DNA from: an uncultured Prevotellaceae bacterium
GTDB taxonomy: Bacteria; Bacteroidota; Bacteroidia; Bacteroidales; Muribaculaceae
Direction: 5' to 3'
Length of the DNA stretch: 47,678 bases
Assembly: GCA_900320245.1 (NCBI GenBank)
Contig: ONRP01000017.1
Location: forward strand, 1 to 47,678
The translations under genes were made by a program, and so were the position numbers. The notes below the pieces were generated by a model, which saw only the letters and a program-made list of their open reading frames with translations, was not told where the DNA came from and did not search any database. Positions 13,306 to 13,824 of the stretch are shown one piece after another. Position 1 is the first letter of the stretch. Every line of letters begins with the position of its first letter.

Positions 13306-13334
13306 CTCACGCTAAGCCGCTAAGCCGCTAAGTT
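13306..13334 (+). repeat. 29-bp inverted-repeat end, left (octamer NCGCTAAG x3)
   Basis: CTC followed by three 8-bp units (ACGCTAAG, CCGCTAAG, CCGCTAAG) and TT. It ends one base before the stop codon of the GxxExxY gene. It matches the reverse complement of 13796-13824 at 26 of 29 positions. Confidence 0.92.
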
Positions 13335-13335
13335 A

Positions 13336-13770
13336 TTATTTTCTTGTTTTTAAAGCCATTTCAACAGCAGGTTCCTTAAAACCATTGACGATCCTCTTGA
13401 TACCGCGCTTGAGATAACTCTCGTTGAAATTCACCAACAGCCCCAAGTGCTTATCGGTCAATTTCAAATAGGTGAGCAATTGTTTCTCATGAACAGGAAG
13501 CAGTTGCTCCACCGATTTGATTTCAAGAACAATTGAGTCCTCGACCAGGATATCAAGCCTGAAATCAATATTCATATCAACACCCTTATAAAATGCCCTT
13601 ACTGGTACTTGATTCTGTGCATTGATGCCTCGAGATTTCAACTCCAGCATCAAAGCCCTCTCATAAACCGATTCAAGCATCCCGGGACCCAAGTTATTGT
13701 ACACCTCAAAGATACTATCCAGAATCGGTTTAGTTCCATCATTTCCCCATACGACATTGTCACTCATCAT
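13336..13770 (-). CDS. GxxExxY family protein
   Basis: 144 aa. GPGMLESVYERAL contains the name-giving motif (Gly30, Glu33, Tyr36). FRLDILVEDSIVLEIKS (about 70-86) has the Asp-x(9)-Glu-x-Lys spacing (Asp73, Glu83, Lys85) of PD-(D/E)XK nuclease-like folds. Nuclease activity is not demonstrated for the family and is inference here. The gene fits exactly between two 29-bp inverted repeats and interrupts the yidC-pyrG neighbourhood. No good promoter was found, so it may be read through from pyrG. Start 13770 gives two consecutive Met codons; 13767 is equally possible. The arrangement suggests a small transferable cassette. Confidence 0.92.
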   Translation of the reverse strand: MMSDNVVWGNDGTKPILDSIFEVYNNLGPGMLESVYERALMLELKSRGINAQNQVPVRAFYKGVDMNIDFRLDILVEDSIVLEIKSVEQLLPVHEKQLLTYLKLTDKHLGLLVNFNESYLKRGIKRIVNGFKEPAVEMALKTRK

Positions 13771-13795
13771 CTACAAAATTTTCAAAACCCCAAAA

Positions 13796-13824
13796 AACTT
13801 TGCGACTTAGCGTCTTAGCGTGAG
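13796..13824 (-). repeat. 29-bp inverted-repeat end, right
   Basis: Read on the minus strand this is CTC, then ACGCTAAG, ACGCTAAG, TCGCAAAG and TT, the inverted partner of 13306-13334. The TAA stop codon of pyrG (13817-13815) lies inside it. Confidence 0.92.

Follow-up and report, generated by a model that had tools for sequence, protein, structure and literature searches.

A GxxExxY gene enclosed by inverted arrays of short tandem units looks like a minimal movable cassette

The intervening sequences (IVS) of 23S rRNA have ends that pair, and the gene of a REPtron is bracketed by inverted REP palindromes. According to the available text of PMC8266576, the TnpA-REP/RAYT enzyme of the REPtron and its REP repeat co-evolve. 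A 23S IVS carrying an S23/four-helix-bundle open reading frame is a small one-gene insert in a transcribed region, as far as the accessible part of PMC4990558 describes it. Short tandem repeats have also been reported: the TAACTGA heptamers of Beggiatoaceae, cyanobacteria and Bacteroidetes are direct repeats located mostly upstream of genes, with one indirect repeat (PMC4679880, available portion). The BrickBuilt MITE of Porphyromonas gingivalis is an intergenic Bacteroidales element that combines tandem units with inverted-repeat ends (PMC4596501, in part).

The window, by which we mean the whole stretch of 47,678 nucleotides analysed here, contains a cassette at 13306..13824 whose extent was delimited from its sequence and by comparison with allele L190. 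Its left terminal array (13306..13334, + strand) consists of CTC, three octamers (ACGCTAAG CCGCTAAG CCGCTAAG) and TT. The right terminal array (13796..13824, − strand) has the same composition in inverted orientation and overlaps the end of pyrG, whose last codons and stop form its outer end (ORF 13815-15440). A GxxExxY gene of 144 aa (13336..13770, − strand) is the sole gene in the block, which lacks a transposase and thereby differs from an autonomous DDE insertion sequence. The upstream neighbour, pyrG (13815..15440, − strand), and the downstream neighbour, yidC (11155..13260, − strand), run in the same direction as the GxxExxY gene. We re-derived the 29-nt inverted ends of the earlier note, including their 26/29 identity and the single base between the left array and the stop codon, while 25 bp, and not the 26 bp it gave, separate the first ATG from the right array. 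Tandem Repeats Finder reports a period of 8 in both arrays, and two-unit octamer matches with at most two mismatches occur 6 times in the window (0.13 expected; 6 reached in 0 of 100 shuffles). No target-site duplication was seen by eye at the cassette, for which an exact empty allele was not found for comparison. The stretch of roughly 40 bp that separates the octamer array from yidC (13261-13305) is partly alike in L192, L193, L201, L208 and L212, is missing from the four-helix-bundle allele L190, and may be the remnant of an earlier insert.

This layout resembles each of the described systems in some respects. Like a REPtron, it has a single gene, inverted cognate repeats, and repeats that may also scatter without the gene; unlike a REPtron, its protein is of the PD-(D/E)XK kind and not an HUH Y1 enzyme, its ends are arrays of short tandem units, and an unrelated non-nuclease family has the same design. 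The likeness to the 23S IVS extends to the four-helix-bundle family, which itself forms array-ended cassettes, in relatives at the very same slot. However, the cassette lies between pyrG and yidC and not in an rRNA gene, encodes a predicted nuclease instead of an S23 protein, and belongs to a type with 8-10 nt units. Fixed-length short tandem units that are mostly intergenic and patchy across phyla recall the TAACTGA heptamers, but the arrays described here are tied to GxxExxY and four-helix-bundle genes, and the available text of PMC4679880 gives no such tie. The BrickBuilt element differs in having 23-nt units inside it and small inverted ends, with no gene named in the accessible part of PMC4596501. 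A literature search that covered neither preprints nor most subscription journals returned no account of the array-ended GxxExxY/four-helix-bundle architecture.

Judged from its sequence, the cassette appears to be a minimal movable element of a type not described so far. We propose that such cassettes are movable units of one gene whose ends are recognition arrays for the nuclease that they encode; we give this proposal about an even chance and favour it over its main rival, an RNA-level element. Inverted arrays of three short tandem units would act as recognition sites for the encoded nuclease, which would cut the ends or bring them together, perhaps assisted by host replication or repair because a transposase is absent. 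Short gaps within operons would gain or lose the cassette in this way, and once inserted it would be retained in sense orientation and expressed through read-through transcription. Gene-less pairs would be what persists after the gene, but not the ends, has been lost. We infer that cassettes may move from comparing their sites, and we likewise infer the binding of the array by the protein, the cutting there and the route.

The encoded protein belongs to the GxxExxY/PDDEXK_3 family, in agreement with the earlier note (TIGR04256: E 2e-41, 141 bits against a curated cut-off of 35; Pfam PDDEXK_3: E 9e-41, 139 bits against 22). Its AlphaFold2 model is confident (mean pLDDT 87, pTM 0.79), and the nearest solved folds found by Foldseek are those of the Cas4 protein SSO0001 (E 0.0019) and of lambda exonuclease (E 0.008); these matches are moderate (TM about 0.5, rmsd 12-15), with none below E 0.001. 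The family shows little or no variation at the G-x-x-E-x-x-Y, D, E-x-K and Q-x3-Y positions, including the putative catalytic residues D73, E83 and K85 that had been singled out beforehand; the D, E-x-K and Q-x3-Y residues presumably constitute the RecB/Cas4-like PD-(D/E)XK motif. Based on fold and residues, we predict a compact Cas4/lambda-exonuclease-like nuclease. At 144 aa it is shorter than the matched chains of Cas4 and lambda exonuclease (about 200-228 aa), and unlike theirs its neighbours are pyrG and yidC. A reading as a defence gene drew only weak Cas4 profile matches (E 0.007 and 0.008), and neither a single-sequence nor a profile search of the PDB found a homologue at E 1. PDDEXK_3/GxxExxY is a widespread family of predicted nucleases on which the literature searched holds almost nothing: in the text available, GxxExxY is mentioned in work on reverse transcriptases (PMC8934634), the term also appears in PMC12085832, and PF13366, TIGR04256 or PDDEXK_3 appears in PMC9756366.

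We characterized the borders of these genes by matching the 120 bp upstream locally to the reverse-complemented 120 bp downstream and taking the best score, with a threshold of at least 18. Among the matches listed, the PF13366 family is present in at least 72 of 101 genomes. The genome of the window has five such genes, all five with inverted repeats at their borders and each with a different repeat sequence; the one on contig C70 scores 17, just below the threshold. Across the 113 best-scoring matches listed (80 fetched stretches, 29 loci and 5 own genes make 114, one of which lacks a flank), 85 GxxExxY genes reach the threshold and 28 fall under it, compared to 12 of 1130 dinucleotide shuffles, 0 of 49 long ORFs of the same loci and 2 of 29 GNAT genes of relatives (30 genes with one skipped). 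Four-helix-bundle (PF05635) genes behave alike: 22 of 30, themselves part of the family members in these genomes, score at least 18, versus 1 of 600 shuffles.

The arms are often periodic, with a unit length that follows the protein family, 8-10 nt for GxxExxY and 7 nt for four-helix-bundle genes. Significant periodicity was found in 75 of 168 GxxExxY arms, with best lags of 8 (10 arms), 9 (51), 10 (13) and 11 (1), and in 36 of 44 four-helix-bundle arms, with best lags of 6 (2), 7 (27), 8 (3) and 14 (4). A lag of 7 against other lags separates the two families with a Fisher P-value of 2e-18, calculated over arms that are not independent. The four-helix-bundle loci L195, L203, L210, L211 and others have AGTTGTC/AGTTTTA units of 7 nt that resemble the TAACTGA heptamers as given in the available text of PMC4679880, and a common origin is possible. 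PF05635 resembles Avd of diversity-generating retroelements (PMC10053308, in part), which makes a nucleic-acid-binding role for four-helix-bundle cassettes plausible. As vehicles, phages yielded 0 matches in 50,697 records and plasmids 8 in 72,556 records at E 1e-5.

Both kinds of gene are found predominantly in the sense direction between co-directional neighbours. For the 96 GxxExxY genes scored, the orientations relative to the flanking genes are 71 ++, 15 +-, 9 -+ and 1 --, and for the 29 four-helix-bundle genes they are 25 ++ and 4 +-. This strong bias fits read-through expression and fits equally well an alternative in which the element acts in the transcript. There, the two arrays would pair in a read-through RNA, enclosing the gene in a stem-loop like that of the 23S IVS so that the operon tolerates it, and the protein would bind or trim its own stem and so regulate itself. 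The four-helix-bundle genes, whose family is that of the rRNA IVS, have the same cassette architecture, and the folded cassette RNA has a closing stem (z -7.2), although any inverted repeats trivially give such a stem; the window has no Rfam match at the gathering threshold. The predicted fold, however, is nearest to DNA exonucleases. Moreover, complementarity between the separator bases of paired octamer arms is near chance (7 of 24, and 2 of 22 at the spacing of the IS-type MITE described below, the pairs being sorted by spacing so that C58, one of the 12 'other' pairs, is itself a copy of that MITE), and so it is the unit sequence, and not the pairing of the arms, that is kept. We regard the RNA-level alternative as unlikely, though it has the strongest claim after the DNA-level cassette with a nuclease acting on its own ends.

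If the protein reads the array, the sequence of the array is expected to be tied to the protein clade and its unit length to the family. We found that the repeat type does follow the clade, which upholds the link between repeat and gene that had been suggested for the window alone. In a tree of 113 proteins, the seven genes with full octamers (on both sides in four, on one side in three) make up exactly one clade with a support of 0.996; beyond the seven, L077 has a near octamer match upstream. Among pairs of genes that lie at different places, end similarity correlates with protein identity (Mantel r 0.52; the largest of 999 permutations was 0.11), a different place being one with no blastn flank match, so that diverged orthologous sites may count as different. 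Ends are similar in 90% of 79 pairs with at least 70% protein identity and in 1% of 3117 pairs below 35%. Against the proposal stands that, in a set picked for high self-scores, 32 of 40 cassettes have arms slightly more alike to each other than arms of different same-type cassettes are.

The link extends outside the genus. A search with the window protein as query, which makes the loci found relatives of the window clade, gave 59 loci, of which 56 were analysed and three (L287, L304 and L306) were left out as cut by a contig end. Inverted repeats score at least 18 in 25 of the 56 and below that in 31. Units of the form C[GA]CN[AG][AC]G spaced by 8 occur in both arms of 16 of the 25 array-bearing loci; since L249-L254 repeat the DNA of genus loci already counted, the independent count is 10 of 19 loci outside the genus, compared to 1 of 106 GxxExxY genes of other clades. 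Carriers of this unit type include Pirellula, Schlesneria and Thermoguttaceae (Planctomycetes), Qipengyuania and Erythrobacter (Alphaproteobacteria) and Thiohalocapsa (Gammaproteobacteria); the 19 loci also span other Bacteroidota and MAGs.

The tie between array and protein bears on a further alternative, in which the gene and its ends are passengers moved in trans, for example by a Y1 transposase, and the protein has another role. The four-helix-bundle cassettes share the design without encoding a nuclease, so the mover may indeed act in trans. The genome of the window has four PF01797 (Y1) matches, two of them strong, and the end of the GxxExxY type on C70 contains a palindrome, GCCCGTTAGGGC, that also flanks one Y1 gene (cassette L077 on C70 and Y1 flank L338 on C17, both of genome G000). 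But the two strong Y1 genes are flanked by different inverted repeats of their own, no octamer pair lies in the 3.3 kb around them, and a mover in trans does not predict that array sequence follows clade or that unit length follows family. We consider the passenger explanation quite unlikely.

With the GxxExxY and four-helix-bundle cassettes taken together, we suspect, at somewhat less than an even chance, that they form one broad unrecognised class in which a single small protein sits between inverted short-unit arrays. In such a class the family would set the unit length (8-10 versus 7 nt) and the clade the unit sequence, cassettes would replace each other in operon slots, and the scattered short tandem repeats of several phyla would be orphaned ends. 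If protein and array are partners, both the nuclease family and the short tandem intergenic repeats gain a testable function; a nuclease that reads a modular array of short units would, if true, recognise DNA in an unusual way. The element is a new category only if the protein acts on its ends, while a passenger protein would make it a variant of an IVS- or REP-like element.

We compared the pyrG-yidC slot in 30 members of the genus, including our own, using draft assemblies and part of the pyrG matches present in 96 of 101 genomes. There are empty sites, whose existence the earlier note had put as a question, and we also found swapped, deleted and gene-less versions. The slot is empty in six members (gap 23-73 bp), short and without recognised arrays in one, and occupied by one octamer array in one and by a gene-less octamer pair in three, one of them decayed. 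Eight members have the octamer GxxExxY cassette, one cut by a contig end, and a ninth, L208, has it with an internal deletion. Four others hold a GxxExxY gene with hairpin-type ends, one a decayed hairpin type, and five a four-helix-bundle cassette (L203 and L210 recognised by sequence likeness only). In L208, the middle of the gene is lost while both end arrays are unchanged, and the deletion apparently ran between two short TTGGG repeats. The pyrG ending '...SR*' of the window is shared by 12 of the 30 pyrG genes examined. Different occupants are seen elsewhere too: another slot has four-helix-bundle genes in L220, L224 and L228 and GxxExxY genes in L083 and L085, and two further slots seem, by flank match, to hold different GxxExxY types.

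The closest comparison is with the G020 allele (L190), whose pyrG DNA is 99.5% identical to that of the window and whose two 1.2-kb flanks are both 99.4% identical. The window allele has the GxxExxY gene with octamers, while the G020 allele has a four-helix-bundle gene with other arrays. On the pyrG side, the alleles cease to be identical 2 bp beyond the right array. On the yidC side, the breakpoint is 37 bp away from the left array, which, like a target-site duplication not being seen, weighs against the proposal; either the swapped piece was slightly larger than the block or the 37-bp stretch was gained separately. The contigs C7 and C45 of G020 carry different pyrG genes, with 100% and 91% protein identity to that of the window, which suggests that G020 is a mixed bin; its C7 contig comes from a very near relative of the window strain.

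Within the octamer clade, the protein is under strong purifying selection, as judged from a median dN/dS of 0.07 (largest 0.19) over the 45 pairs with measurable dS. The protein is thus retained because it has a function, and since 43 of these 45 pairs are in the same place, it is inherited mostly without a change of site. With dS between octamer-clade genes mostly saturated in addition, any movement of cassettes is rare. Selection and frequent inheritance in place would also be expected of a domesticated regulator that binds the arrays as operators and is now immobile, with the slot differences left by old insertions, losses and recombination. Such a regulator fits poorly with a whole-cassette difference between alleles with near-identical flanks, or with gene-less and deleted versions in the same slot, and we hold it to be very unlikely.

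Octamer arrays also lie away from any GxxExxY gene. With a lenient score they occur at 76 places in the examined stretches of the 3.02-Mb assembly, and the three-unit pattern with at most two mismatches has 37 + 34 matches in the whole genome. Inverted octamer pairs have start-to-start spacings of 38-41, 64-65, 115, 126-151, 234, 353 and 488 bp; the pair at 488 bp is the window block. In 16 of 18 aligned copies, an array subtype that falls mainly in the spacing class near 140 coincides with the left end of an IS-type MITE, where it belongs to a longer element (GTAACTATTCAGCC...GGCTGAATAGTTAC). This MITE is about 235 bp long, has ends GTAACTATTCAGCC with the octamer pair inside, and is found on C27, C28, C35, C40, C41, C47, C48, C52, C58, C64, C66 and others; the C64 copy has an 8-bp flank duplication, GCAATACC, read by eye, and C58 a similar one. 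A truncated copy lies in the window at 19195..19241 (+ strand), where the MITE end (GTAACTATTCAGCC) accompanies an octamer array, the array being all that it has in common with the cassette. Since the MITE carries its own terminal repeat, its octamer copies cannot be credited to the GxxExxY gene. The view of the block as a minimal mobile cassette without a transposase is supported in part: the gene with its cognate ends, the slot variants and the tie of repeat type to clade speak for it, and the scatter of arrays, which the earlier note would have counted as a refutation if unlinked to GxxExxY genes, is partly of that kind. The proposed search for the 29-mer revealed a gene-repeat link that is general alongside scattered arrays, many of them in the MITE.

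The suggestion that copy number follows the gene holds in part. Nine of 61 genus genomes have the octamer-clade gene (63% identity or more; G002 has part of it only) and contain 8-38 exact octamer arrays each, whereas 34 of the 52 genomes without it have no exact array and the rest have 1-49. Copy number is higher with the gene across all 61 genomes (P-value 6e-6), and less clearly so among the 27 octamer-bearing genomes (P-value 0.013), both calculated over related genomes that are not independent. Copy number alone as proof of gene activity was ruled out, with 16 of 18 subtype arrays in the MITE. Among the three repeat types examined, wide dispersal is confined to the octamer. The second repeat type of the genome (GCGGATTA units, C64) has three exact matches, all at or adjoining its cassette, and four matches elsewhere in the genome with one mismatch. 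The 2.8 Mb of Qipengyuania flava contain the cognate array only twice, as the two ends of the cassette.

Two further arrangements of repeats occur in the same genome. On C54, octamers bound a 5.3-kb composite whose ORFs of at least 90 aa look by eye like repetitive surface proteins. In the window, a four-helix-bundle suffix gene (15923-16618, − strand; TIGR04258, TIGR02436) is flanked by 9-mer arrays of AAACTGGAC at 15502-15536 and 16681-16725, which have the same orientation and are not inverted, and about ten tandem copies of a 35-bp unit (15592-15937) extend to its 3′ end.
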